From Gammaproteobacteria bacterium (GTDB lineage: Bacteria > Pseudomonadota > Gammaproteobacteria > JAKEHO01): a stretch of DNA of 43,155 nucleotides. The stretch is taken from positions 1 to 43,155 of the forward strand of contig JAPUIX010000160.1 of NCBI GenBank assembly GCA_027296625.1, read 5' to 3'. Positions 14,595 through 30,286 of this stretch are shown here, one piece after another. The number at the start of each line of letters is the position of its first letter. Within the stretch, counting starts at the first letter, position 1. The position numbers and the translations under genes were made by a program. The notes under the pieces were generated by a model. That model did not search any database. It had not been told where the DNA came from and saw nothing but the letters and a program-made list of their open reading frames with translations.

Positions 14595-16040
14595 TTAGTC
14601 AGACGAACCCTTGAGTTTCTCCCGCAATAAGGCGTTAACCTGCTGGGGGTTTGCCTTACCGCTGGATTTTTTCATTATCTGTCCGATGAAATAGCCGAAT
14701 AGTTTTTCCTTGCCGCTTCTGTACTTCGCTAGCTGGTCTGGATTTTCGGCGAGGACCTCGTCGATTAGTTTTTCGATGGCACCAGCATCGGTAACCTGCT
14801 TGAGCCCCTTTGCTTCAATAATCGCGTCCGCGTCGCCTTCTCCGTTCCACATCGCTTCGAAGACTTCCTTTGCAATTTTTCCGGAAATAGTATTGTCTAC
14901 AATTCGTGTCGTAAGTCTGCCAAGCATCGATGCTGACACAAGGCTTTTGGTGATCGGCTTACCCGCCTTATTCAGCGCGCCTAACAGGTCACCCATGACC
15001 CAATTTGCACATAGTTTTGGACCTGCTTCAGATGTTCTTACCGTTGCTTCAAAAAAATCCGCTAGTTCACGACTGGAAGTCAACACGCTGGCATCGTATG
15101 GTGATAGGTCATATTCGGCCATAAACCGCTGTTTCTTCTGTTGGGGTAATTCAGGCAGTTCCGCGCGGACGCTTTCGATATAGCCCTCCTCTAGCTCAAG
15201 TGGGAGAAGATCCGGATCTGGGAAATAACGGTAATCGTTCGCCTCCTCCTTGCTTCGCATTGGACGGGTCTCGTTCTTGTTTGCATCGTAAAGGCGGGTT
15301 TCTTGGGTGACATCCTCTCCCGCGTCAAGGACATCGGTTTGACGCTGTAACTCGTAGTTGATCGCACGCTCGACAAACCGGAAAGAGTTTAGGTTTTTCA
15401 ATTCGGTCCGCGTCCCCAATGTTGACTCCCCCTTCCGGCGCAAAGACACGTTGGCATCGCATCGGAATGACCCTTCCTGCATGTTGGCATCGGAAATCTC
15501 GAGATAGCGCACAAGTGTGTGGATAGTTTTCATGTAGGCAATAGCTTCCTTTGCCGAGCGCATGTCAGGTTCGGAGACGATCTCAAGGAGCGGTGTTCCC
15601 GCACGATTGAGATCGATCCCCGACATCGAGTTAAACGCTTCATGCAGTGATTTACCGGCGTCCTCCTCAAGATGGGCCCGTGTTACGCTAATGGTTTTTG
15701 GTTCTTCGCCTTCCACTTGGATCTCAACGTGGCCATTAAATACGATTGGGAGCTCATACTGACTGATTTGGTACCCCTTGGGGAGGTCGGGGTAGAAATA
15801 ATTTTTGCGGGCAAATATAGAACGCCGAGCGATGGAGGCGTCAATAGCCAGCCCAAATTTGACCGCCATGTGTACGGCTTCTCCATTCAAAACGGGCAAA
15901 ACACCGGGGAGGCCTAGATCCACGGCGCAGGCCTGCGTGTTGGCCTCAGCTCCGTAAACAGTTGAAGCGCCGGAAAAAATCTTGCTGTGTGTCGTGAGCT
16001 GGACGTGTATCTCCAGCCCGATTACCGGCTCCCAGCCCAT
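14595..16040 (-). CDS. gatB: Asp-tRNA(Asn)/Glu-tRNA(Gln) amidotransferase subunit B
   Basis: The 481-residue product starts [15 protein letters not shown] and carries [45 protein letters not shown], and FRCDANVS with the following [10 protein letters not shown]. These are the cradle-domain and kinase-like active-site segments. The C-terminal YqeY-like tail that binds tRNA is present (ALLREKL at the end). GatB activates the misacylated Glu or Asp with ATP and accepts ammonia from GatA. AAGGAG lies eight bases before the ATG. It is the last gene of gatC-gatA-gatB. Confidence 0.97.
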
Positions 16041-16152
16041 AATACATACTCCTTAATGGGAGGCTCCACGTCTATCAAGGATGCCACCTCTCGGCATGAA
16101 ATGCATGTCCAGGAGAGCTGCCGAGCGGGGGACGGATCGTCGGATTACACTT

Positions 16153-17634
16153 TTAATCGAATCCCTCGGGTAGCATGAGATGCCAATCGGTCTCCTGCTG
16201 ATAGCGGTGAGCGACATTGCAGAGACGTTCCTCCGAAAAATAATTTCCGATAATTTGTAGGCCAGCAGGTAATGTGCCGACGAAACCGGCGGGAATCGAC
16301 ATACCAGGCAATCCGGCAAGGTTCACCGAGACCGTGTAAATATCAGAAAGATACATCGTTACGGGATCATCGGTCCTCTCGCCGAGCTCAAATGCTGCCG
16401 TTGGGGACGTCGGACCAACAATCACATCAACGTCCTCGAAGGCCGTCTTGAAGTCGTCACTGATCAATCGGCGTATCTGTTGCGCCTTAAGATAATAGGC
16501 ATCATAGTAACCAGCTGACAGTGCATAGGTACCGATCATGATCCTGCGTTTAACCTCGGCGCCGAAACCTTCGCCGCGGGAACGGCAGTACAGATCCGAT
16601 AGGTCTTTAGGATCTTTGCAGCGAAAGCCGTAGCGCACACCGTCGTATCGTGCCAAGTTGGAAGAACACTCCGCTGGTGCCACCACGTAATAAGCCGGTA
16701 TCGAAAGATGCGTATTGGGGAGACTGATCGTGCGGATTTTGGCACCAAGTGTTTCAAAGACTTTGATTGCGGCGTCAATAAGCGCCTGTATTTCAGTATC
16801 CAAGCCCTCGCCGAAGTATTCTTTTGGTAGCCCGATCCTAAGGCCTCGAATGTCATCATTCAGGGACGCCGTAAAATTTGGAACGGGGCGATCCACAGAG
16901 GTTGAATCGCGCTCATCGAAACCTGCCATGACGTTGAGCAGCATGGCAACATCTTCGGCGGATCGCGCCATTGGGCCACCTTGGTCAAGACTGGAGGCGA
17001 AGGCGATCATGCCGTAGCGGGAAACCCGGCCATAAGTCGGCTTAAGGCCTGTGATGCCGCATAACGAAGCGGGTTGACGAATGGAACCGCCAGTATCGGT
17101 CCCGGTAGCTGCCGGAGCAATTCGTGAGGCGAGAGCGCATGCAGCCCCGCCTGATGAGCCGCCAGGGACTCGCTCTGGATCCCACGGGTTTTTAACCGCT
17201 CCGTAGTAACTGGTCTCATTCGACGACCCCATGGCGAATTCATCCATGTTCGTCTTGCCTAACATTACCATACCCGCCTGATTGATACGTTTGATTACGG
17301 TGGCATCATACGGAGCGATGAAGGAGTCAAGCATGCGTGATCCACAGGTTGTTTTGACACCAAGTGTGCAAAAAATGTCTTTATGAGCGATCGGCACACC
17401 GGTTAATGGCCCACAAGTGCCGGATCGAAGCAATACATCAGCAGCCTTTGCTTGAGCCAACGCCTGATCGCTTGTGATTGTTATAAAACAATTGAGTTTT
17501 GGATTGAATCGTTCAATTCGATCGAGATACGTACGGGTTAATTCTTCGCTGCTTATATCCCTCGCACGCAGCGCGGCAGACAGCTCGGCGAGCGTCTTCT
17601 TGTGCAGGCTATTTTCTGGATTTGAGACTGCCAC
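16153..17634 (-). CDS. gatA: Asp-tRNA(Asn)/Glu-tRNA(Gln) amidotransferase subunit A
   Basis: The 493-residue product is an amidase-signature enzyme. The Ser-cisSer-Lys catalytic set appears as Lys85 (PIAHKDIF), Ser160 (PGGSSGG) and Ser184 (TGGSIRQPA), with the 75- and 24-residue spacings expected for GatA. It releases ammonia from glutamine for GatB. The first codon is GTG at 17634 ([18 protein letters not shown]); no better start with a clear Shine-Dalgarno was found, so the first few residues are uncertain. It lies between gatC and gatB with gaps of 85 and 112 bases. Confidence 0.96.
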
Positions 17635-17719
17635 AGACGGCTCTATTCGATTCGCGCCGCAGCTTTGTGGTCGCGTTGCATGCTATGAAGCCTGTCGACG
17701 CTCTAAAGACCGCTATTTC

Positions 17720-18007
17720 CTACTCGATGACCTTAGGCACCAGGTAATGTCCCTCCTTGACCTGCGGTGCAATACTTTGGAAGCGCTCCCGTTCATCGAC
17801 CTCAACCACCGCGTCGCTGCGGAGCCGCGCGTTAATCGCAAGCGGGTGAGCCATAGGAAGGACCCCTTTGGGGTCGACAGCGTTCATCTGCTCGATAAGT
17901 TGGAGAATATTGGAGAGATCCCGCGCGTACTCAGCGACCTCCTCGGCAGTCAAGGCAAGGCGCGCGAGCCACGCGATCTTTTCCACGTCCTTCTTTTGTA
18001 GTGACAT
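17720..18007 (-). CDS. gatC: Asp-tRNA(Asn)/Glu-tRNA(Gln) amidotransferase subunit C
   Basis: The 95-residue protein starts at MSLQKKDVEKIAWLARLAL, with GGAG about seven bases upstream on the minus strand; the frame extends further upstream without family similarity. It ends with HYLVPKVIE, the usual GatC tail (RVPKVIE in others). GatC wraps GatA and GatB and stabilises the complex. As first gene of the set, its promoter must lie in the 301-base gap shared with mreB. Confidence 0.95.
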   Translation of the reverse strand: MSLQKKDVEKIAWLARLALTAEEVAEYARDLSNILQLIEQMNAVDPKGVLPMAHPLAINARLRSDAVVEVDERERFQSIAPQVKEGHYLVPKVIE

Positions 18008-19355
<1,348 letters not shown>

Positions 19356-19394
19356 CACCGCCTACGCCACTCAATTTCAGTTGAGGAGCGCATC

Positions 19395-20261
19395 ATAAAA
19401 CCGCTGTTCCTGAGAAGTCCGGCGCAGATCGTACGTCTAGCAGCATTCGTCATCGCGTCGGTCATTTTAATGACTGTTGATCACCGCCACGGTCATCTGG
19501 AGACCGTGCGCTCGACACTCTCTGTTGTCGTGTATCCAATCCAATATTTGGTCAACCTGCCCATAGAGATGGGACAGTGGATGATGAACTCGTTGGTTAC
19601 ACGTGAATCGCTGCTGAATGAAAATGCTCGGCTACGGAAAGAACACTTATTACTCAGTTCGAAACTCCAAAAGTTTGCTGCGCTGGAGGTGGAAAACCAG
19701 CGTCTAAACGAACTGCTAGAATCATCTTTCAAAGTCGGCGAACGGGTTCTCGTTGCTGAACTTCTGGCGGTGGCGCTTGAACGTTTCAAACGTCAGGTTG
19801 TGATCAATAAAGGTGCTAAGGAGGGCGCATATAATGGACAACCCATTGTCGATGCTGAAGGTATCATGGGCCAGATTGTGCACGTTGGCCCATTCTCCAG
19901 TACCGTGATGTTAATAACAGATCCGAGTCATGCCATACCTGTTCAAGTTAACCGAAATGGGCTCAGGGCAATAGCGATTGGCACTGGCGCCACTAACAGC
20001 CTTGAATTGGAATATGTTCCAAATAATGCAGACATCAGGGTAGATGATCTCCTAGTTTCCTCGGGACTCGGTAGCCGGTTCCCGCCTGGTTACCCCGTTG
20101 GCCGGGTCACCAATGTTTCCGTAGATCCGGGCCAACCATTTGCTAAAGTGACTGTGATACCGAGTGCAAAACTCGACCGAAGTCGCGAGGTGTTGCTAGT
20201 CTGGCCGCCGGATCAAGCAGGCGAACTTGACCCAGCGTCGGCCAGCGCTACTAAGTCGTGA
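19395..20261 (+). CDS. mreC: Rod shape-determining protein MreC, probable ATA start
   Basis: The first ATG in the frame (19470) lies after the membrane anchor. Reading upstream gives KPLFLRSPAQIVRLAAFVIASVIL, which matches the N-terminal anchor of MreC. No ATG, GTG or TTG occurs between the in-frame stop at 19353 and 19470. GAGGAG at 19383-19388 places an ATA at 19395 with six-base spacing; ATC at 19392 is the next candidate. The rest is typical: a coiled coil around LLNENARLRKEHLLLSSKLQKF, then the two beta domains with QVVINKG, GIMGQIVHVG, SHAIPVQVNRNG and PVGRVTNV. MreC is periplasmic and links MreB to PBP2. A sequencing error turning ATG into ATA is also possible. Confidence 0.92.
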   Translation: MKPLFLRSPAQIVRLAAFVIASVILMTVDHRHGHLETVRSTLSVVVYPIQYLVNLPIEMGQWMMNSLVTRESLLNENARLRKEHLLLSSKLQKFAALEVENQRLNELLESSFKVGERVLVAELLAVALERFKRQVVINKGAKEGAYNGQPIVDAEGIMGQIVHVGPFSSTVMLITDPSHAIPVQVNRNGLRAIAIGTGATNSLELEYVPNNADIRVDDLLVSSGLGSRFPPGYPVGRVTNVSVDPGQPFAKVTVIPSAKLDRSREVLLVWPPDQAGELDPASASATKS

Positions 20262-20746
20262 CCCTCGCCAAACGCCATGGTAGTTGGGTCATTGTATTAA
20301 CCTTCGTGGCCGCCTTCTTGCTGGATGCGATGCCGCTGCCCGACTGGGCCGTAGACGCCCGCCCGTTATGGGTAGCGCTTGTTCTTATCTACTGGTGCAT
20401 GGCCTTGCCGGAGCGTATCGGGATAGGAATCGCGTGGGTGTTAGGACTGCTACTGGATGTGATGCAGGGGACGCTACTCGGTCATTATGCCCTAGGGCTG
20501 GTCGTGGTCGCGTACGTTACGGTGCAAACCCATCGTGGTGTGCGCGTATTTCCTCTCTTGCAACAAGCTGTCCTAGTTGGTTTTTTGTTGCTTTTTTATC
20601 TGCTCTTATCTCTGTGGGTGCGTGGCATTGTAGGGCTGCCTCCAGAAAAGTGGTCCTACTGGTTGCCGGCGGCGACGAGTATGGTGTTATGGCCCTGGGT
20701 ATTTATCATATTGCGTGACTTGCGGCGCAAATATAATGTTTCCTGA
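20258..20746 (+). CDS. mreD: Rod shape-determining protein MreD
   Basis: The 162-residue protein has four to five hydrophobic stretches and the MreD landmarks ARPLWVALVLIYWCMALPERIGIGIAWVLGLLLDVMQGTLLG. It starts with GTG at 20258, overlapping the mreC stop by four bases. Length equals the family norm (162 in E. coli). MreD is an integral inner-membrane partner of MreC and RodA/PBP2. It lies 18 bases ahead of mrdA. Confidence 0.95.
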   Translation: MTLAKRHGSWVIVLTFVAAFLLDAMPLPDWAVDARPLWVALVLIYWCMALPERIGIGIAWVLGLLLDVMQGTLLGHYALGLVVVAYVTVQTHRGVRVFPLLQQAVLVGFLLLFYLLLSLWVRGIVGLPPEKWSYWLPAATSMVLWPWVFIILRDLRRKYNVS

Positions 20747-20764
20747 TATGAGTTACGAAGTTCG

Positions 20765-22615
20765 ATGCAGCGTCAATTAGTCTTTAAAGATCTGAGCCGC
20801 GAGAACCGGATCTTCAAAAGCCGCATGACCGTGGCTGTTGTGATCATGGTTATATCTGTTTCATTGATTATTGTACGTCTAGTTGACTTACAACTCATTA
20901 AACATGCGCATTTTATTACCTTGTCTCATGAAAACCGGGTCAAAGTTTTACCCATCCCTCCGATCCGCGGTTTAATCTATAGTCGTGACGGTGTGTTGCT
21001 CGCGGATAACCAACCGGCGTTCAGTTTGGAAATGGTACCAGAGCAAGTAGAGGACGTAGACGCTACCATTGCCGAGTTAGCTAGGATCATTGATATCAAC
21101 GCAGTTGATATTCAGCGGTTCTATAAGCTGTTGAACGAGCAACGTCGCTTCGACGCGGTGCCATTACGTTTTCGTTTGAGTGACGAGGAGGTAGCTCGTT
21201 TTTCGGTCAATCGCCATCGTTTCCCCGGCGTAGATATCGCGGCGCGCCTTACGAGATATTATCCACTTGGTTCTCAAACTGCCCACGCCGTGGGGTACGT
21301 TGGGCGTATCGATGAAAATGATCTTGAACGTGTCGACGTATCCAACTACAGCGGCAGCACGCACATCGGGAAGCTCGGGATAGAGAGAGCCTATGAAGAC
21401 GTGCTACATGGACGTGTAGGCTACCAGCAAGTCGAGGTTAATGTCCGCGGGCGCATATTACGCGTATTGGATCGAACGCCGGCATTACCGGGCCAAGATC
21501 TTTTCTTGAGCCTTGATGTTTCTTTGCAGAAGCTAGCAACCGAGGCACTGACAGGCTGGCGGGGAGCGATTGTTGCGATCGACCCTCAGACCGGCGGGGT
21601 ACTTGCGATGGTAAGTTCCCCAGGTTATGACCCGAATGTATTTGTTTACGGTATTGAGCCCGAATCATTTGATGAGTTACGCCGCTCGCCCGATGGGCCG
21701 CTCTTCAACCGGGCAGTGCAGGGGCACTATCCGCCTGGCTCCACGATCAAACCGTTTCTTGGGCTTGCTGCGCTTGAGTACGGATTAAGGACTCCGGATC
21801 AGGGAACGTGGTGCCCCGGCTGGTTCAAGCTCAAGGGGAGTCGTCACATATTCCGCGATTGGAAGCGAGGCGGGCACGGCGATACTGATCTCTCCCGCGC
21901 GATTACAGAGTCCTGCGATATCTATTTTTACAGTTTGGCCCATGATATGGGCATTGACCGTATCAATTTATTTTTGACCCGCTTTGGTTGGGGTGGAAAG
22001 ACTGGCATTGATATCACGGGTGAAGGGGACGGCCTCATACCCTCGCCGGAATGGAAGCGAAAGAATTGGCATCTGCCCTGGTACCCGGGTGAGACTCTGA
22101 TTAACGGGATCGGTCAGGGTTTTACGCTTGTTACGCCAATTCAACTTGCGTCTGCAACGGCAGCGCTGAGCTCACGCGGTCGGCAGATGCATCCTCGGCT
22201 GGTTGTGCGCATAGAGGACCCTATGGCCGATCGCTCAGCGGTGTTGTCGAACGAGAGTGAGTCTTGGATCGTGGTTAATGAGGAAGCATATTGGGATCAG
22301 ATCATTTCTGCCATGGTTGACGTAGTACATGGTCCGACAGGTACAGCTCGTGCAAGTGGACGGAATGCCCCTTACCGTTATGCGGGAAAGACTGGTACCT
22401 CACAGTTGGTAACAATAGATCATGATAAGAGGAATGATGGGGATGATTTGCCTGAGAACCTGCGTGATCATTCCCTATTTATTGGATTTGCTCCGGCCGA
22501 CGTCCCAAGCATTGCTGTGGCAGTTGTTGTAGAGAACGGCGGCAGTGGGAGTAAAGTGGCTGCACCGATTGCTCGTAAGTTATTTGATCATTACCTTTCT
22601 AAGTCGAGGATATAA
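20765..22615 (+). CDS. mrdA: Penicillin-binding protein 2, elongation transpeptidase
   Basis: The 616-residue class B PBP has one N-terminal membrane segment (around MTVAVVIMVISVSLIIVRLVDLQLI), then the PBP dimerisation region (PIRGLIYSRDGVLLADN) and a transpeptidase domain. Catalytic motifs are Ser326-Thr-Ile-Lys329, Ser-Cys-Asp in TESCDIYFY, and Lys542-Thr-Gly544. PBP2 cross-links lateral-wall peptidoglycan with RodA. Length is close to E. coli PBP2 (633). The gene is placed between mreD and rodA, the usual order. Confidence 0.97.
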   Translation: MQRQLVFKDLSRENRIFKSRMTVAVVIMVISVSLIIVRLVDLQLIKHAHFITLSHENRVKVLPIPPIRGLIYSRDGVLLADNQPAFSLEMVPEQVEDVDATIAELARIIDINAVDIQRFYKLLNEQRRFDAVPLRFRLSDEEVARFSVNRHRFPGVDIAARLTRYYPLGSQTAHAVGYVGRIDENDLERVDVSNYSGSTHIGKLGIERAYEDVLHGRVGYQQVEVNVRGRILRVLDRTPALPGQDLFLSLDVSLQKLATEALTGWRGAIVAIDPQTGGVLAMVSSPGYDPNVFVYGIEPESFDELRRSPDGPLFNRAVQGHYPPGSTIKPFLGLAALEYGLRTPDQGTWCPGWFKLKGSRHIFRDWKRGGHGDTDLSRAITESCDIYFYSLAHDMGIDRINLFLTRFGWGGKTGIDITGEGDGLIPSPEWKRKNWHLPWYPGETLINGIGQGFTLVTPIQLASATAALSSRGRQMHPRLVVRIEDPMADRSAVLSNESESWIVVNEEAYWDQIISAMVDVVHGPTGTARASGRNAPYRYAGKTGTSQLVTIDHDKRNDGDDLPENLRDHSLFIGFAPADVPSIAVAVVVENGGSGSKVAAPIARKLFDHYLSKSRI

Positions 22616-22627
22616 GGGAAACAACGC

Positions 22628-23722
22628 GTGAATACGCAGCAAGATCTGCTTCAGCGTCTGCACATCGATGTGCCCCTGTTATTTTCATTAATTGTGCTGT
22701 GCGGGATCGGTCTTGTGGTGCTCTACAGCGCTGCGGATCAAGATACGGAGGTCATCGTTCGACAGGGTATACGCATTGGCTTGGCCTTTGGTTTGATGTT
22801 TCTCGTGGCCCAGATCCCGCCGTATCAGATCGCACGCTGGGCCCCTTGGTTCTATTTCCTCGGGCTCGTTCTGTTGGCATTGGTTCTTGCCGTTGGCGAT
22901 ATTGGTAAAGGGGCGCAGCGCTGGTTGGACCTGGGGCTATTCCAGATTCAGCCATCTGAGATAATGAAGATCGCTGTGCCGATGGCAGTCGCCTGGCACC
23001 TGGCAGATAAATCCCTTCCACCTCGATTACTTCGCGTCATAGTCGCCTGCCTTTTAATTTTTATTCCCGTCATTATGATTGCGCGTCAGCCTGATTTGGG
23101 CACGGCCGTGCTTGTCGGTGCTGCAGGCATTGCCGTCCTGTTTCTGGCCGGGATTCAGTGGCGCATGATCGCTGCCTTTGGTTTGCTTGCGGCATTCTGC
23201 ATACCATTGGTGTGGCATCTGATGCACGATTATCAGCGCCTGCGAGTTCTGAACTTTCTTGATCCACAGCAGGATCCGCTTGGTGCTGGTTGGAGCATCA
23301 TACAGTCGAACATCGCCGTGGGTTCTGGTGGCCTATATGGTAAGGGGTGGTTGAATGGGACGCAGTCCCATCTTGAGTTTCTACCCGAGCGCTCAACTGA
23401 TTTTGTGTTTGCCGTCTACTGCGAGGAGTTTGGCTTCATGGGCGTATTGTTGTTGTTGTCACTTTATGGATTAGTGATTTTGCGATCCGTTTATATTGCC
23501 ATGCATGCTCAGAATACTTTTGGTCGTCTGTTAGCGGGCGGGTTGACATTAACGTTTTTTGTTTACATCTTCGTCAATATGGGCATGGTTACTGGGCAGC
23601 TACCGGTGGTAGGAATTTCATTGCCGTTGATAAGCTTTGGCGGTACCTCTTTAGTGACACTCATGGCTGGTTTCGGTATCCTGATGGCTATTCATACGCA
23701 TCGGAGACTGCTGTCCAATTAA
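22628..23722 (+). CDS. rodA: Peptidoglycan glycosyltransferase RodA (SEDS family)
   Basis: The 364-residue product is a multispanning SEDS protein. It has VVLYSAADQD, QRWLDLGLFQIQPSEIMKI, FIPVIMIARQPDLGTAVLV, the large loop with QSNIAVGSGGLYGKGWLNGTQSHLEFLPERSTDFVFAV, and the end VVGISLPLISFGGTSLV. The Asp in ARQPDLGTA is the catalytic residue known from RodA studies. It starts with GTG at 22628 after AAGGGA. RodA polymerises glycan strands with PBP2. Confidence 0.97.
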   Translation: MNTQQDLLQRLHIDVPLLFSLIVLCGIGLVVLYSAADQDTEVIVRQGIRIGLAFGLMFLVAQIPPYQIARWAPWFYFLGLVLLALVLAVGDIGKGAQRWLDLGLFQIQPSEIMKIAVPMAVAWHLADKSLPPRLLRVIVACLLIFIPVIMIARQPDLGTAVLVGAAGIAVLFLAGIQWRMIAAFGLLAAFCIPLVWHLMHDYQRLRVLNFLDPQQDPLGAGWSIIQSNIAVGSGGLYGKGWLNGTQSHLEFLPERSTDFVFAVYCEEFGFMGVLLLLSLYGLVILRSVYIAMHAQNTFGRLLAGGLTLTFFVYIFVNMGMVTGQLPVVGISLPLISFGGTSLVTLMAGFGILMAIHTHRRLLSN

Positions 23723-23740
23723 TTAGGTTAATTGGCACGC

Positions 23741-24730
23741 ATGTTAAAACGTATCGGCTCTATTCTGGCACTTGTGGTTTCTTGGATGGGCATCACCGGC
23801 GCTACATCCATCGATCAAGCAGAGCTAAATAGATTTATCGATAGTATGGTGCAGCAGCATGCGTTTAAGGGCAGCGAGCTGCATTCTCTGTTTCAGCAAG
23901 CCAGACTATCTCCTGAGGTCCTTCAGGCTATTTCAAGGCCCGCCGAAAGTAGGCCGTGGTACCGGTATCGGCCTATTTTTTTGACTACAGAGCGCGTTGC
24001 CGGCGGGGTTGGATTCTGGAGCGCTAATGCCGAAACATTAAGCAGTACAGAGGCAACGTATGGTGTTGCCCCCCAGATCGTGGTTGCCATTATTGGGGTC
24101 GAAACACGCTATGGAGCCAATAACGGTAAGTATCGGGTCATGGATTCTCTGACGACGCTGGCGTTCAACTATCCGGAACGCAGTGCATTTTTTCGTGGTG
24201 AGTTAGAACACTATCTGTTGCTCGTGCGCGAACAGCGTATCGAGCCGCTGTCGTTGAAAGGTTCTTATGCCGGCGCGATGGGCCTGCCGCAGTTCATCTC
24301 GAGTAGTTACCGACGCTATGCCGTGGATTACGATGGAGATGGGATCAGTGATATCTGGAACAATCCAACGGATGCAATCGCAAGCGTTGCCAACTATCTG
24401 AGCGCGCATGGTTGGCAGGCTGACAAGGCAGTTGCCCTCCCCGCTACGGTGATCGGTGAACGCCATCAGGAGTTCATCGAACTAGGGCTTAAGCCCCAGA
24501 TTAAACTTGCCCAGGTAAACGACTATGGTATCCAACTTGAAGGCGACGCACCCGATGACGCATTAGGATCGTTAGTGGTCCTCGAGACCGAAACTGGACA
24601 AGAGTATTGGGTAGGGCTGACGAATTTTTACGTGATTACGCGTTACAATCACAGCGCGCTCTATGCGATGGCGATATATCAACTTTCAGAGGAAATCCGA
24701 TTACAGTATGAAGCGCAGTTCAAGGACTAA
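23741..24730 (+). CDS. mltB: Membrane-bound lytic murein transglycosylase B
   Basis: The family match is clear: GVETRYGANNGKYRVMDSLTTLAFNYPERSAFFR, SLKGSYAGAMGLPQFISSSYRRYAVDYDGDGI and IASVANYLSAHGW. The catalytic acid is Glu121 in GVETRYG, counting from ATG 23741. An N-terminal hydrophobic signal (SILALVVSWMGITGA) exports it, but no lipobox cysteine is visible, unlike E. coli MltB; so it may be soluble or peptide-anchored. A TTG start at 23732 would add three residues. The enzyme cleaves glycan strands to 1,6-anhydro products. Confidence 0.95.
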   Translation: MLKRIGSILALVVSWMGITGATSIDQAELNRFIDSMVQQHAFKGSELHSLFQQARLSPEVLQAISRPAESRPWYRYRPIFLTTERVAGGVGFWSANAETLSSTEATYGVAPQIVVAIIGVETRYGANNGKYRVMDSLTTLAFNYPERSAFFRGELEHYLLLVREQRIEPLSLKGSYAGAMGLPQFISSSYRRYAVDYDGDGISDIWNNPTDAIASVANYLSAHGWQADKAVALPATVIGERHQEFIELGLKPQIKLAQVNDYGIQLEGDAPDDALGSLVVLETETGQEYWVGLTNFYVITRYNHSALYAMAIYQLSEEIRLQYEAQFKD

Positions 24731-25586
24731 AGGCCGGTTAAACGAGAGGTCGGTAACACTGCGAGCGGCGCAACAGGCATTTACTCAGATTGACCTGAGG
24801 GGGGCCCTGTTAAATCTAGCGCTGGCCGTATCTCTTACTGCCTGCGGTATCAGTGAGGAACGAGACGGTGCCCCCGAGGAACCAGTGGATGTATCTTACA
24901 TCCCGGACGCTGTGCCTAAGGTTGAACCGCGCAGTCGGTACGGCAATCCGAAATCGTACGTAGTGAATGGCAGGCAGTATTACGTGATGAGCCGTAGCGG
25001 CGGCTATTTCGAACGGGGGATCGCCTCGTGGTACGGTACAAAGTTTCATGGTAGACGGACCTCCAGCGGTGAACCTTATGACATGTATGCGATGACAGCA
25101 GCTCACCGTACTTTGCCGATACCTACATATGTGCAAGTGACCAATCTGCGAAATGGCCGCAAGATCATCGTTCGAGTCAATGATCGGGGTCCGTTTCACC
25201 AGAATCGCATTATTGACCTTTCTTACGCCGGGGCGAAGAAGCTTGGCATCGCGGCCAAAGGCACGGGGTTGGTCGAGGTGCGCGCAATTGATCCGAGAGC
25301 GCCGAACGAGGAGCCGGTGAAATTGAGGACGGCATCTAGGAGCGGTGACTCAAGCAACTTCTACTTGCAGGTTGGCGCTTTTGCGGAGTTAATGAATGCC
25401 AAGCGGCTCAAATCGCAATTAGCGGCTATGGGAGAGTCGCTCGTGCGGATCAATCAGGCGGTTGTTTCGGGGCGGACCTTCTACCGTGTGCGGATAGGTC
25501 CGATTATGAGCGTCGAGGCCGCTGATAGTCTGGTGGATACGCTAGCAGAACTTGGCATTGATAAGCCCCACTTCGTTTTCGATTGA
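24708..25586 (+). CDS. rlpA: Septal ring lytic transglycosylase RlpA-like lipoprotein
   Basis: I place the start at ATG 24708, overlapping the end of mltB; the frame is open upstream to 24663. A lipoprotein signal ends in LALAVSLTAC. Next come the double-psi beta-barrel (ERGIASWYGTKFHGRRTSSGEPYD, AAHRTLPIPTYVQVTN, VRVNDRGPFHQNRIIDLS) and a C-terminal SPOR domain (FYLQVGAFAELMNAKRL to RVRIGPI). RlpA homologues cleave peptide-free glycan; the SPOR domain recruits to denuded septal glycan. The n-region before the signal is unusually long (about 35 residues), so a later non-ATG start is conceivable. Confidence 0.93.
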   Translation: MKRSSRTKGRLNERSVTLRAAQQAFTQIDLRGALLNLALAVSLTACGISEERDGAPEEPVDVSYIPDAVPKVEPRSRYGNPKSYVVNGRQYYVMSRSGGYFERGIASWYGTKFHGRRTSSGEPYDMYAMTAAHRTLPIPTYVQVTNLRNGRKIIVRVNDRGPFHQNRIIDLSYAGAKKLGIAAKGTGLVEVRAIDPRAPNEEPVKLRTASRSGDSSNFYLQVGAFAELMNAKRLKSQLAAMGESLVRINQAVVSGRTFYRVRIGPIMSVEAADSLVDTLAELGIDKPHFVFD

Positions 25587-25668
25587 TTCCATTGCAGTTT
25601 ATTCGATATTTGCTCGCAATTTTGCGTAAAATAGCCGATCTTTTTGAAACGGTTAAGAACTTTCGGTA

Positions 25669-26808
25669 ATGAAATGCTTTAGCCAGTATCTTACGCTGCT
25701 GATGCTGTTTGTGAGCGCCAGCAGCTTTGCGGCTGCGCCTATCCTACCGTCGCCGCCAACGCTCGACGCCAGGGCCTACCTGCTATTGGATTACCACAGT
25801 GGCGAAATACTGGCGGAGAAGGGCATCGATGACCCTGTGGAACCCGCAAGCCTTACAAAATTGATGACTGCCTATGTGGTAGCAAGTGAATTGGCCTCTG
25901 CGCATGTCAGCCTTGATGACAGGGTCACTGTGAGTGAGAAGGCTTGGCGCATGGGAGGCTCCCGAATGTTTATCGAGGTAGACACTCAGGTCGCTGTCGA
26001 AGATCTCCTTACAGGTGTGATCGTGCAGTCGGGCAATGATGCAAGTGTGGCACTTGCGGAACATGTCTCGGGCACTGAAGAGGCTTTTGCAGCGATCATG
26101 AACCAACACGCAATACAGCTGGGCATGAGTGGAAGCAGTTTTGTGAACAGTACGGGGCTCCCGGATCCAGACCACTACACGACCACACGTGATATGGCTA
26201 TCCTTGCAGCGGCATTGAAACGGGATTTTCCCTATATTTATGATCTGCATGCAATGCGCGAGTTTACCTTTAATGGGATCAGGCAGTTCAATCGCAACAA
26301 ACTGCTGTGGCGGGATGAGTCGGTCGATGGGGTCAAGACCGGCTACACGGATTCGGCAGGCTATTGTTTAGTGGCATCCGCCCAGCGTGGTGATATGCGA
26401 CTCATTTCCGTCGTGATGGGTTCCACGAGTGAGAATACGAGAGTCAAAGCCAGTCAAGCACTATTGAATTACGGGTTCCGTTTTTTTGAGACCCATATGC
26501 TTTATGAGGCATTCGAACCGCTGACCCGTGAGCGAATCTGGAAAGGGAAGTCGGAGACGCTAGATCTGGGACTGGATAAGGCGCTCTATGTCACTATACC
26601 GCGGGGACAGTATGAGCGGCTTGATGCAACGGTGCAGCTGAATACACCGATCATTGCGCCGGTAGAGATGGCACAGCCACTGGGTATGGTCAAAGTAACG
26701 CTGGCAGAGAATGATCTGGCGGAGCGCTCTCTGATCGCCCTACAGTCTGTGCCCAAGGGCAACCTGTTCCATCGCATGGCAGATGCCGTCAGACTGCTGT
26801 TCCACTAG
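25669..26808 (+). CDS. dacA: D-alanyl-D-alanine carboxypeptidase (PBP5/6 type)
   Basis: The 379-residue product has a cleavable signal (LTLLMLFVSASSFAAAP) and the three penicillin-binding motifs: Ser61-Leu-Thr-Lys64, Ser121-Gly-Asn123 and Lys223-Thr-Gly225. The C-terminal beta domain and a final amphipathic helix (NLFHRMADAVRLLFH) tether it to the inner membrane. It removes the terminal D-Ala of pentapeptides. The 82-base gap before it holds a -10-like TAAAAT at 25627-25632 without a good -35. The Shine-Dalgarno is weak. Confidence 0.97.
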   Translation: MKCFSQYLTLLMLFVSASSFAAAPILPSPPTLDARAYLLLDYHSGEILAEKGIDDPVEPASLTKLMTAYVVASELASAHVSLDDRVTVSEKAWRMGGSRMFIEVDTQVAVEDLLTGVIVQSGNDASVALAEHVSGTEEAFAAIMNQHAIQLGMSGSSFVNSTGLPDPDHYTTTRDMAILAAALKRDFPYIYDLHAMREFTFNGIRQFNRNKLLWRDESVDGVKTGYTDSAGYCLVASAQRGDMRLISVVMGSTSENTRVKASQALLNYGFRFFETHMLYEAFEPLTRERIWKGKSETLDLGLDKALYVTIPRGQYERLDATVQLNTPIIAPVEMAQPLGMVKVTLAENDLAERSLIALQSVPKGNLFHRMADAVRLLFH

Positions 26809-26816
26809 GTCGGGCG

Positions 26817-27677
26817 ATGTCCATTGTCTATCTGAACGGAGAGTATCTGCCGATTGATAAGGCCCACATATCGGTACTCGACCGTGGATTTATGTTCGGT
26901 GACAGCATCTATGAGATTATTCCTGCCTATTCAGGGCAACTCTTCCGGCTGGAGCAACACCTCCAGCGCCTCGATAGAAGTCTGAAATCGATACGTTTGG
27001 TTAATCCGCTGACGCCGCATGAGTGGCAGCAAATGTTGCAGCGACTGCTGGAGAAAAATGGTGCAGGGGATCAGTCCGTCTATCTTCAAGTAACACGCGG
27101 TGTTGCAGAGCGCGACCACGTCATTCCACCGCAGCTTACACCCACTGTGTTTGCCATGTGTCAGTCCATGGACCAGGGCCGTAAGGAAACCGGTGTTGCC
27201 GCCGTTACGCTAACGGACTTTCGTTGGAAGCGTTGTGACATCAAAGCTACGACACTGTTGCCCAATGTCCTGCTGCGTCAGGAAGCGGATGACAGGGGGG
27301 CAACAGAGGCAATACTGCTGAGGGAAGGGCGCGTCACCGAGGGTGCTGCAAGTAACGTATTTATTGTCTTGGAAGGCGTGGTCAAAACGCCGCCCAAAAG
27401 TCATCTCCTCCTGCCCGGTATCACTCGGGACTTTGTCTTGGAGTTACTGGCGTCTGCTGGTATCCCTCATCAGGAGATTGAAATTGACAAAATGGAACTC
27501 CGTCGTGCTGAGGAAATTTGGGTCACAAGTTCGATCCGGGAAATCGTGCCGGTCATCAAGCTCGATGATCAGCCCGTGGGTGATGGTCGGCCAGGGCACA
27601 TGTGGGGAAAGGTCATATCGCTGTACCAGGCGCATAAGCGCGCGCCAAAGAATGCAGCGACGGCTAGAGCCTCTTAA
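26817..27677 (+). CDS. Class IV aminotransferase, probable D-amino-acid aminotransferase
   Basis: The 286-residue PLP enzyme of fold type IV shows LDRGFMFGDSIYEIIPAYSGQLFRLEQHLQRLDRSL, YLQVTRGVAERDHVIP and CDIKATTLLPNVLLRQEA with the PLP-binding lysine in DIKAT, plus TEGAASNVFIV and the end WVTSSIREIVPV. It resembles D-alanine aminotransferase more than branched-chain enzymes, as it is short and has YSGQLFRL. In many proteobacteria this gene follows dacA, suggesting use of released D-Ala. It lies eight bases after dacA. A branched-chain or aminodeoxychorismate-lyase function is not excluded. Confidence 0.87.
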   Translation: MSIVYLNGEYLPIDKAHISVLDRGFMFGDSIYEIIPAYSGQLFRLEQHLQRLDRSLKSIRLVNPLTPHEWQQMLQRLLEKNGAGDQSVYLQVTRGVAERDHVIPPQLTPTVFAMCQSMDQGRKETGVAAVTLTDFRWKRCDIKATTLLPNVLLRQEADDRGATEAILLREGRVTEGAASNVFIVLEGVVKTPPKSHLLLPGITRDFVLELLASAGIPHQEIEIDKMELRRAEEIWVTSSIREIVPVIKLDDQPVGDGRPGHMWGKVISLYQAHKRAPKNAATARAS

Positions 27678-27730
27678 CGTTGCCGTAACATCCAATCAAA
27701 AGTTCTAATCGTGTTTGTATGGGAGGAATT

Positions 27731-30286
27731 ATGCCCATCGTTGATGCGGAGTCCGATCTAAGTTGTGCGGCCGCTGATGAAGCTTTCAGTGGACCGGACA
27801 CAGAAAAACACTATCCGCCTGACCTTGGACTTGAGCCCTTGCACATCGATATTGATCTGCACGTCGATCTTGGGAACGAAACCACAAATGGTACGGTCAT
27901 CACCACGGTTCAGGCCCGACGTGACGGGATTCGGATTCTGCGCCTGGACGCACTTGACTTTGAAGATCTTGAAGTCTGGGACGTAGATGATAAGCCTCTA
28001 ACCCACCGGTATGACGGTCATGCGATCACGATTTCCTGGGAAGAACCTTTTATCAATTCGGAGGAGCGCCGCATAGCCGTCTGCTACCGTGTGACCCAGC
28101 CAGTCAGTGGTCTTTTCTTCTCGAAGCCGACGGACGCCTATCCTGATGATCCATGGTTCGCAGCGACCGACCATGAAACCGAGCGGGCCAGATATTGGTT
28201 ACCCTGTATTGATCTGCCCAACGTCAGAACGAGGCTTGATTTTCATCTGCGTGCGGATGGACGCTTTACTATTCTCGCCAATGGCAGCCTGATTGACGAG
28301 ATCGAGCATGATGATGGGACCAAGACCGCCCATTGGCGTCTTGAGTATCGCTGTCCAAGCTACCTTGCGTCCTTTGCCATTGGAGACTTCATGCGCATCG
28401 ACGACGACGCCGTTGGTGATATCCCCATTGCCTATTTCGCTGTGCCACGTTTCTCTGAAGCCGACCTACGCCGATCCTTTGGGCGCACGCGCGATATGCT
28501 GGTATGGATGATCGAAAAACTCGGTATGCCATATCCGTTTCCGAAGTACTTCCAATTTGCCCTCCCGAGCTTTTATGGTGCCATGGAAAATATTTCGCTG
28601 GTCAGTTGGAACGATATCTTCATCCTGGACGAGATCCTGGCAAAGGAGTGGGAGCAGTTTGTCGATGCCGTGAATGTCCATGAAATGGCCCATAGTTATT
28701 TTGGTGACGCTGTTGTCTGCCGCGACTTTGCCCATGCTTGGCTCAAGGAATCGTGGGCAACCTACATGGAACAATGCTGGTTCGAGGACAGCCTTGGAGA
28801 GGATGAAGGACAGTATGAATTCTACCGCAATGCCGTGGCCTACTTGACTGAGGCCAGTGAGCGTTATCAGCGACCTATCGTGACACGGCAGTTCAGATCA
28901 TCCCGTGATATGTATGATAGGCACCTTTATCCAGGTGGCGCCTGTCGTCTGCACATGCTCCGGCGTGTGTTGGGGGATGACGTATTTTGGAACGCCGTAT
29001 CGGATTATCTAAAGCGTTACGCCGGTAAGGTTGTAGAGACGGATGACTTTCGGCGTGTCCTGGAGGAAGGTTCTGGACGTTCCTTGGGGCAATGGTTCGA
29101 TCAATGGTTTTTCACGCCGGGCTATCCGTCGCTGAAGGTGCGATTCAAATATGACGAGTCCAGTTCGCAGGGTACTTTCGAGATCGAACAAAAACAAGTC
29201 GACCGCGATAAAGGCATACCGGCTTTTATGCTTGAGACAGCGATCGGCTGGACACTGGATGGTCAGGATCACTCTCAGCCCGTGACACTTGAATATGCAA
29301 AACATACCTTTACTGTCGATATCCCGCGGCCACCGGAACAGGTCCGGTTTGATCCCGAAACCAAGGTGCTCGTAAAACTTGACTTTAATCCAGGTGACAC
29401 CTTGCTCCGTTGCCAGCTTAACGCCGCCAAGGACGTTATCGGGCGGATCCTGGCTGCCAGGGAGCTGGCGAAGACGGGGAAACACGGCAATATTCGGGCG
29501 ATCATTGACGCATATGCCACGGAAAGGTTCTGGGGTGTGCGAGAGCAGATGGCAAAGAGCTTGGGTAAGGTTGGGGTGGAGGCAGGGCTTCAAGGGATCT
29601 TGGAGATCATTCCAATGGAAGGTGATCCGAGGGTTCTCGAAGCCGTCTTTCATGCAGCGGCAAGCTACCGCGATCCGCGTATTAAAGACGCCGTGCTGGA
29701 GCGTCTAGACGGCGAACTGCCGTACCGCGCGAGGATGGCGGCCTATGAAGGCTTGGGTGCTCAGCGTGGCGATGCACCCTGGGAACTGCTCCTCGAGGCG
29801 GCAGCGAGGGAAGATTTTTCAGGCTTCATGCAGAGTGGGGCGTTTCGGGGGTTGGCCGCCACCCGCAAGTCAGAGGCTGTCGATATACTCTTGGAAAGAG
29901 TTCCCTATGGGGCGACTCAGCACAGAGGCCGCCCGGCGGCGGTTGCCGCGCTTGCTGAGCTTGGTAGCGTGCAGGAGGCGGGGAGGCGGGAGCAGATTGT
30001 GGAGGCGTTGGTTGACTTGCTACGCGATCCGGTGGAAAAGGTTCGACGTGCAGCGGCGGAAGGTCTGAAGACTGTGCATGCTACGGAGGCGATCCCGGCG
30101 CTGGAGGCCTATCGTAGCGCATTGCCGCAGCAGGAACAGGTCAAGCTGGATCGCCTGTTGGATAAATTGAGGGTGGATGAAAAGCCGACGGAGCGTTCGC
30201 TGCAAAAGCAGCTTGAGGAGTTGCGGGACAAGTTTCGCACCTTGGAAGATCGCCTCCAGAAGCTCGAATCTGGACTTGAGGATTAG
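27731..30286 (+). CDS. M1 family metallopeptidase with C-terminal helical repeats
   Basis: ATG 27731 follows a strong GGGAGGA, so I prefer it to the ATG at 27719; the product has 851 residues. The N-terminal beta domain and M1 catalytic core are clear: Gly283-Ala-Met-Glu-Asn287 and the zinc site His317-Glu318-x-x-His321 with Glu340 19 residues later. After residue about 560 come HEAT-like helical repeats (RAIIDAYATERFWGVREQMAKSLGKVG; VEALVDLLRDPVEKVRRAAAEGL), then a charged coiled coil ending LEDRLQKLESG. No signal peptide is seen, so it is probably cytosolic. The ERAP-type C-terminal domain appears replaced by HEAT repeats. Confidence 0.9.
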   Translation: MPIVDAESDLSCAAADEAFSGPDTEKHYPPDLGLEPLHIDIDLHVDLGNETTNGTVITTVQARRDGIRILRLDALDFEDLEVWDVDDKPLTHRYDGHAITISWEEPFINSEERRIAVCYRVTQPVSGLFFSKPTDAYPDDPWFAATDHETERARYWLPCIDLPNVRTRLDFHLRADGRFTILANGSLIDEIEHDDGTKTAHWRLEYRCPSYLASFAIGDFMRIDDDAVGDIPIAYFAVPRFSEADLRRSFGRTRDMLVWMIEKLGMPYPFPKYFQFALPSFYGAMENISLVSWNDIFILDEILAKEWEQFVDAVNVHEMAHSYFGDAVVCRDFAHAWLKESWATYMEQCWFEDSLGEDEGQYEFYRNAVAYLTEASERYQRPIVTRQFRSSRDMYDRHLYPGGACRLHMLRRVLGDDVFWNAVSDYLKRYAGKVVETDDFRRVLEEGSGRSLGQWFDQWFFTPGYPSLKVRFKYDESSSQGTFEIEQKQVDRDKGIPAFMLETAIGWTLDGQDHSQPVTLEYAKHTFTVDIPRPPEQVRFDPETKVLVKLDFNPGDTLLRCQLNAAKDVIGRILAARELAKTGKHGNIRAIIDAYATERFWGVREQMAKSLGKVGVEAGLQGILEIIPMEGDPRVLEAVFHAAASYRDPRIKDAVLERLDGELPYRARMAAYEGLGAQRGDAPWELLLEAAAREDFSGFMQSGAFRGLAATRKSEAVDILLERVPYGATQHRGRPAAVAALAELGSVQEAGRREQIVEALVDLLRDPVEKVRRAAAEGLKTVHATEAIPALEAYRSALPQQEQVKLDRLLDKLRVDEKPTERSLQKQLEELRDKFRTLEDRLQKLESGLED

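Follow-up and report, generated by a model that had tools for sequence, protein, structure and literature searches.

Where does translation of mreC begin when the codon that aligns with the first residue of MreC is not a standard start codon? The question arises in a window of 43,155 nucleotides, one contig of the 2.42 Mb draft genome of a gammaproteobacterium. The window carries the operon order mreB-mreC-mreD, followed downstream by mrdA, rodA, mltB and rlpA. The mreC product matches the MreC profiles PF04085 (E=1.7e-43, 148 bits, cut-off 28) and TIGR00219 (206 bits, cut-off 92.75), the latter from residue 5. The features of the operon are as follows, with ATH standing for ATT, ATC or ATA:

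18309..19355, + strand: mreB, with ATG start and TAG stop (open reading frame; NF010539 525 bits, TIGR00904 519.5 bits)
19353..19355, + strand: TAG stop of mreB, in frame with mreC and the upper limit of the mreC frame
19383..19388, + strand: GAGGAG, predicted Shine-Dalgarno sequence of mreC (Shine-Dalgarno enrichment, congener comparison)
19395..19397, + strand: ATA, predicted mreC start; the congener has ATT here, and 134 of 210 genomes of the class have ATH
19395..20261, + strand: mreC, 288 codons and stop (translation, profile matches)
19437..19478, + strand: hydrophobic membrane stretch of MreC, residues ~15-28 (translation, by inspection)
19470..19472, + strand: first in-frame ATG, codon 26 of mreC, the choice of a standard gene finder and judged wrong
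20258..20746, + strand: mreD, with GTG start and a 4-nt overlap with the mreC stop (TIGR03426 121 bits)

Predicted start codon of mreC in the window

Downstream of the mreB TAG, the in-frame codons read CAC CGC CTA CGC CAC TCA ATT TCA GTT GAG GAG CGC ATC ATA AAA CCG CTG TTC, and the frame ends at the TGA at 20259-20261. The sequence bears out the original prediction that no ATG, GTG or TTG occurs in this frame between the TAG at 19353-19355 and the ATG at 19470, and that GAGGAG, at 19383-19388, lies six bases (cgcatc) ahead of the ATA at 19395-19397, which is followed by AAA, CCG, CTG and TTC. ATA 19395 aligns with Met1 of MreC, and a protein begun at ATG 19470 would be left with no cytoplasmic tail and little of the hydrophobic membrane stretch. 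At the sequence level there is good support for ATA 19395 as the start, with GAGGAG serving as its Shine-Dalgarno sequence. The adjacent ATC at 19392, which the original prediction had named beside ATA, is less likely because in the survey described below the ATH sits at the position aligned with Met1 and the Shine-Dalgarno 8-mer ends mostly 5-8 nt upstream. A hairpin masking the mreC start was considered and rejected, as no significant fold was found there (z-scores -0.4, -1.5 and 0.0).

ATT, ATC or ATA is the usual codon at the Met1 position of mreC in Gammaproteobacteria

The single congener available, with 84% identity in MreC, carries ATT where the window has ATA. The 16 bases around the Shine-Dalgarno sequence, TTGAGGAGCGCATCAT (19381-19396), are identical in the two genomes, while the stretch between the TAG and these bases differs at ~11 positions. 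Scoring the codon aligned with Met1 in mreC of 210 distinct gammaproteobacterial genomes, we found ATH in 134 (ATT 58, ATC 48, ATA 28) and a canonical codon in 35 (ATG 30, TTG 3, GTG 2). An ATH lay one to three codons upstream of the Met1 position in a further 12 genomes and a canonical codon did so in 7; the N-termini of the other 22 were unalignable or of another kind. At family level ATH was found in 57/94 and a canonical codon in 13/94, and an evenly drawn sample gave 26/48 and 3/48, respectively, at the Met1 codon. The ATH majority in the class includes single-contig genomes, and in five Kangiella genomes (L194-L198) the TAG is followed by one codon and then by ATC or ATT. E. coli, Vibrio-like and several other clades start mreC with ATG, indicating that the AUH codon is dispensable. 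Loci of Pseudomonadota outside the class have ATG or TTG near the mreC start and lack the KPLF tail, and therefore cannot decide the ancestral state.

Comparison with relatives thus finds ATT, ATC or ATA kept at the same aligned codon, and the non-AUG start that had been taken for a rare event in one genome turns out to be the usual state of mreC in the class. The aligned sequences give strong support to the AUH start and to its conservation, by which this start is widespread in Gammaproteobacteria and not private to one genome.

Two groups of loci depart from this layout. Three of them (L140, L152, L153) read TAA ATC TAC CGC directly before a KPLF-like tail, so that an ATC start would adjoin the stop and add extra codons. 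In ten others (L094, L139, L160, L164, L168, L193, L199-L202) the aligned start and the positions just before it hold no ATH and no canonical codon, and the N-termini of several of these are variable or longer.

Shine-Dalgarno sequences and absence of other starts

In 121 of the 134 ATH genes no ATG, GTG or TTG occurs from the upstream in-frame stop to the ATH, and in 49 that stop lies within 5 codons; with a stop one to five codons upstream in many genomes, no other start is left. By one criterion applied to the same loci, a canonical start is absent from 42/80 mreC, 0/64 mreB and 0/80 mreD. Shine-Dalgarno energies, taken from a simple ungapped stacking score, reached dG<=-4 in 99% of the 134 ATH genes, where the 8-mer mostly ends 5-8 nt upstream, compared with 46% of canonical-start mreC and 30% of the background. 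The median was -7.69 for ATH mreC versus -3.26, equal to background, for canonical-start mreC (p 1e-9, uncorrected for relatedness), and the Shine-Dalgarno sequences of the latter were weaker and scattered in position. Since mreD, which has canonical starts, carries Shine-Dalgarno sequences as strong as those of ATH mreC, a strong Shine-Dalgarno sequence alone is no proof of compensation in mreC.

Constraint in the ATH genes sets in at the Shine-Dalgarno sequence and again at the ATH itself, where T, C or A at position 2 is followed by AAA CC (the invariant A and T at positions 0 and 1 follow from the definition of the group), and the spacer between the two is near random save for a preference for CC at -2/-1. 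From the internal Ile codons of these genes one would expect ATA at the start 13.4+-3.3 times; it is found there 28 times, a ~2-fold excess indicating that the site is unlike an ordinary Ile codon. The codon, its conservation, its Shine-Dalgarno sequence and the absence of alternatives are all directly evident from these comparisons.

As a positive control, we read infC of the genome to which the window belongs (L247, contig C43). It starts at ATC, with a TAG two codons upstream (TAG AAT ATC), and an AUH codon is present in most of the relatives read; the layout of IF3 autoregulation appears to be present at infC of this genome.

At -3 to -1 the 134 ATH genes show a preference for RCC, C being present at -2 in 64% and at -1 in 58%. 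CC at -2/-1 occurs in 38% of ATH mreC, 20-22% of mreB/mreD and 9% of canonical mreC; the window has ATC at -3 to -1.

A model for limited synthesis of MreC

We consider it probable that AUA 19395 is the true start of mreC and one instance of a conserved AUH start that limits MreC translation under IF3 discrimination. According to this model, AUA 19395 would be decoded as fMet with GAGGAG as the Shine-Dalgarno sequence. The strong Shine-Dalgarno sequence would recruit the 30S subunit to mreC, and the third-base mismatch with the initiator anticodon would lead IF3 to reject most initiation events, so that from one mreBCD message MreB would be made freely and MreC sparingly. A fall in IF3 activity would raise MreC synthesis, as it does for infC, and the AUH codon would be kept by selection. 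As the best mechanism for the ATA start we infer a low MreC:MreB ratio combined with dependence on IF3. The AUH codon would presumably entail a low initiation rate and dependence on IF3, with MreC dosage as its likely purpose.

On non-canonical starts IF3 makes 30S complexes less stable, and its repression of infC and sigR provides precedents (PMC5472188); in vitro, higher IF3 disfavours the reading of AUU by a CAU anticodon (PMC10158994). E. coli contains ~180 MreC copies per cell; overexpression of MreC alone deforms the cells, and the defect is partly suppressed when MreD is also raised (PMC7793260).

Like mreC, infC of E. coli and others (AUU/AUC) has a class-conserved AUH start with a third-base mismatch with the initiator anticodon. 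Discrimination by IF3 is known for infC and is proposed for mreC by analogy; furthermore, infC serves autoregulation of IF3, whereas MreC is a cell-shape scaffold, and any control of it would amount to cross-regulation or simply to a limit on dosage. pcnB of E. coli starts with AUU and encodes a low-abundance protein; it resembles mreC in both respects and differs in being a single gene in enterics, and we know of no class-wide survey of its AUU start. The same gene in E. coli, mreC, has the same aligned first residue (MKPIF) as mreC of the window, and differs from it in its ATG start and in showing no obvious Shine-Dalgarno sequence by eye. The GTC-started sigR of Streptomyces is similar to mreC in that the non-canonical start belongs to one of two proteins kept in balance, has a strong conserved ribosome-binding site, and is misannotated in databases; IF3 represses this start (PMC5472188). 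sigR differs in that its codon is GTC rather than AUH, is conserved in Streptomyces only and is experimentally proven, whereas the start of mreC is predicted from sequence.

If a core cell-shape gene does have a class-wide AUH start, infC would gain a broadly conserved companion, and the cell would have a means of keeping MreC scarce compared with MreB although both come from a single message; an effect of IF3 activity on cell shape would then be predicted. To our knowledge, very few bacterial genes have purposeful AUH starts. More tentatively, the level of IF3 relative to 30S, as it follows growth rate or stress, might set MreC output against that of MreB and MreD and form a dedicated regulatory link in most Gammaproteobacteria including Pseudomonas; we raise this as a possibility about which we are doubtful. 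If true, the translation machinery would set the cell-wall elongation machinery.

Evolution of the start codon

The AUH codon could also be the true start of mreC and have no regulatory role, the strong Shine-Dalgarno sequence making the codon tolerable, little MreC being needed, and the codon drifting among AUN. MreC is indeed low-copy (PMC7793260), several clades have moved to ATG, and the MreC tree holds 14 changes between AUH and canonical codons. Drift, however, should mix ATG with ATA, yet of the changes on this tree only ~1.5 are ATA<->ATG, compared with ~38 among ATT, ATC and ATA, of which 21 are ATC<->ATT. In addition, the 14 AUH/canonical changes compare with 31.8 when labels are shuffled, indicating that the labels are clustered on the tree, and the neighbours mreB and mreD are never without a canonical start. 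We therefore regard a start codon devoid of any regulatory role as unlikely and favour an AUH start that limits MreC synthesis. A low total initiation rate of mreC may be maintained in one of two ways, through a weak codon with a good Shine-Dalgarno sequence or through a good codon with a poor one. Eight supported independent pairs, compared for weak codon versus strong Shine-Dalgarno sequence, gave ~3.9 concordant and 0 discordant (median p 0.125); with this p value from independent pairs, the trade-off is only suggestive.

The N-terminus of MreC in Pseudomonas and other readings of the start

Pseudomonadaceae were reached through a genome that shares ~94% identity in the MreC core with P. 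aeruginosa MreC (PDB 6zlv); all 30 mreC loci read in this family are ATH (28 ATC, 1 ATT, 1 ATA), preceded by TAGGAG, GAGGA or similar. In a 6.6 Mb genome (G666, locus L263) the MreC core matches the P. aeruginosa PDB chain at 100% identity, and from this identity and the genome size we infer that the genome is P. aeruginosa. Its mreC starts ATC AAA CCG CTA TTC, with an in-frame TAG four codons upstream. Published numbering of P. aeruginosa MreC places Pro114/Phe115 within a construct of residues 97-258 (PMC8137920); counted from the ATC, these are residues 130/131 and 113-274. The published numbers are thus 16 lower, and residue 1 corresponds to the GTG that forms codon 17, inside the membrane stretch. 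The first 14 residues of the protein are said to span the cytoplasmic part and the membrane region (PMC8137920). Fourteen residues are too short for a helix and a tail, suggesting that the P. aeruginosa annotation is truncated, presumably because an AUC start was disallowed; the annotated protein probably lacks the cytoplasmic tail and part of the membrane helix. Gene-finding programs are blind to the AUH start, and in many genomes including Pseudomonas the N-terminus of MreC is probably annotated short, without the cytoplasmic tail and half of the membrane helix, which affects the constructs and structures based on such annotations. Among the papers on mreC and start codons that were listed in a literature search, judged by titles and abstract openings and with many subscription papers outside its scope, none concerned the start of mreC, and the class-wide AUH start is likely, though not certainly, new to the literature.

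Annotation practice, including the P. aeruginosa numbering from a GTG, is what favours a true start at a downstream TTG, GTG or ATG and hence a shorter MreC. Such a start would remove the conserved [IM]KPLF tail and half of the membrane stretch; the Shine-Dalgarno peak fits the ATH, and the signal within the open reading frame is minor; and E. coli MreC begins exactly at the aligned residue. We consider a downstream start very unlikely. Still less credible is the possibility, entertained in the original prediction, that a real ATG was given an A in place of its G, at 19397, during sequencing or assembly. The species is known from one assembly, but the congener has ATT with TTGAGGAGCGCATCAT unchanged, which argues against a single-base error, and the class majority has ATH, in single-contig genomes as well, with ATA itself in 28 genomes; the error was rejected on these codons of relatives. 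Production of MreC with no need of a start codon, whether ribosomes read through the mreB TAG or translation is coupled to that of mreB, was likewise rejected as highly improbable: in the window the two genes share one frame and are separated by one TAG and 13 codons, but across loci their frame relation is 0, 1 or 2, the gap is 6-298 nt, and several loci have a further in-frame stop between them.

The elongasome cluster in the window

The elongasome cluster at 14595-30286 of the window is ordinary. gatB/gatA on the - strand are divergent from mreBCD-mrdA-rodA-mltB-rlpA, a D-Ala-D-Ala carboxypeptidase gene and a D-amino-acid transaminase gene on the + strand. When the open reading frames of mltB (TTG start, 23732) and rlpA (ATG 24663) are taken from their first start codons, they overlap by 68 bases (24663-24730), and rlpA likely starts later than ATG 24663.
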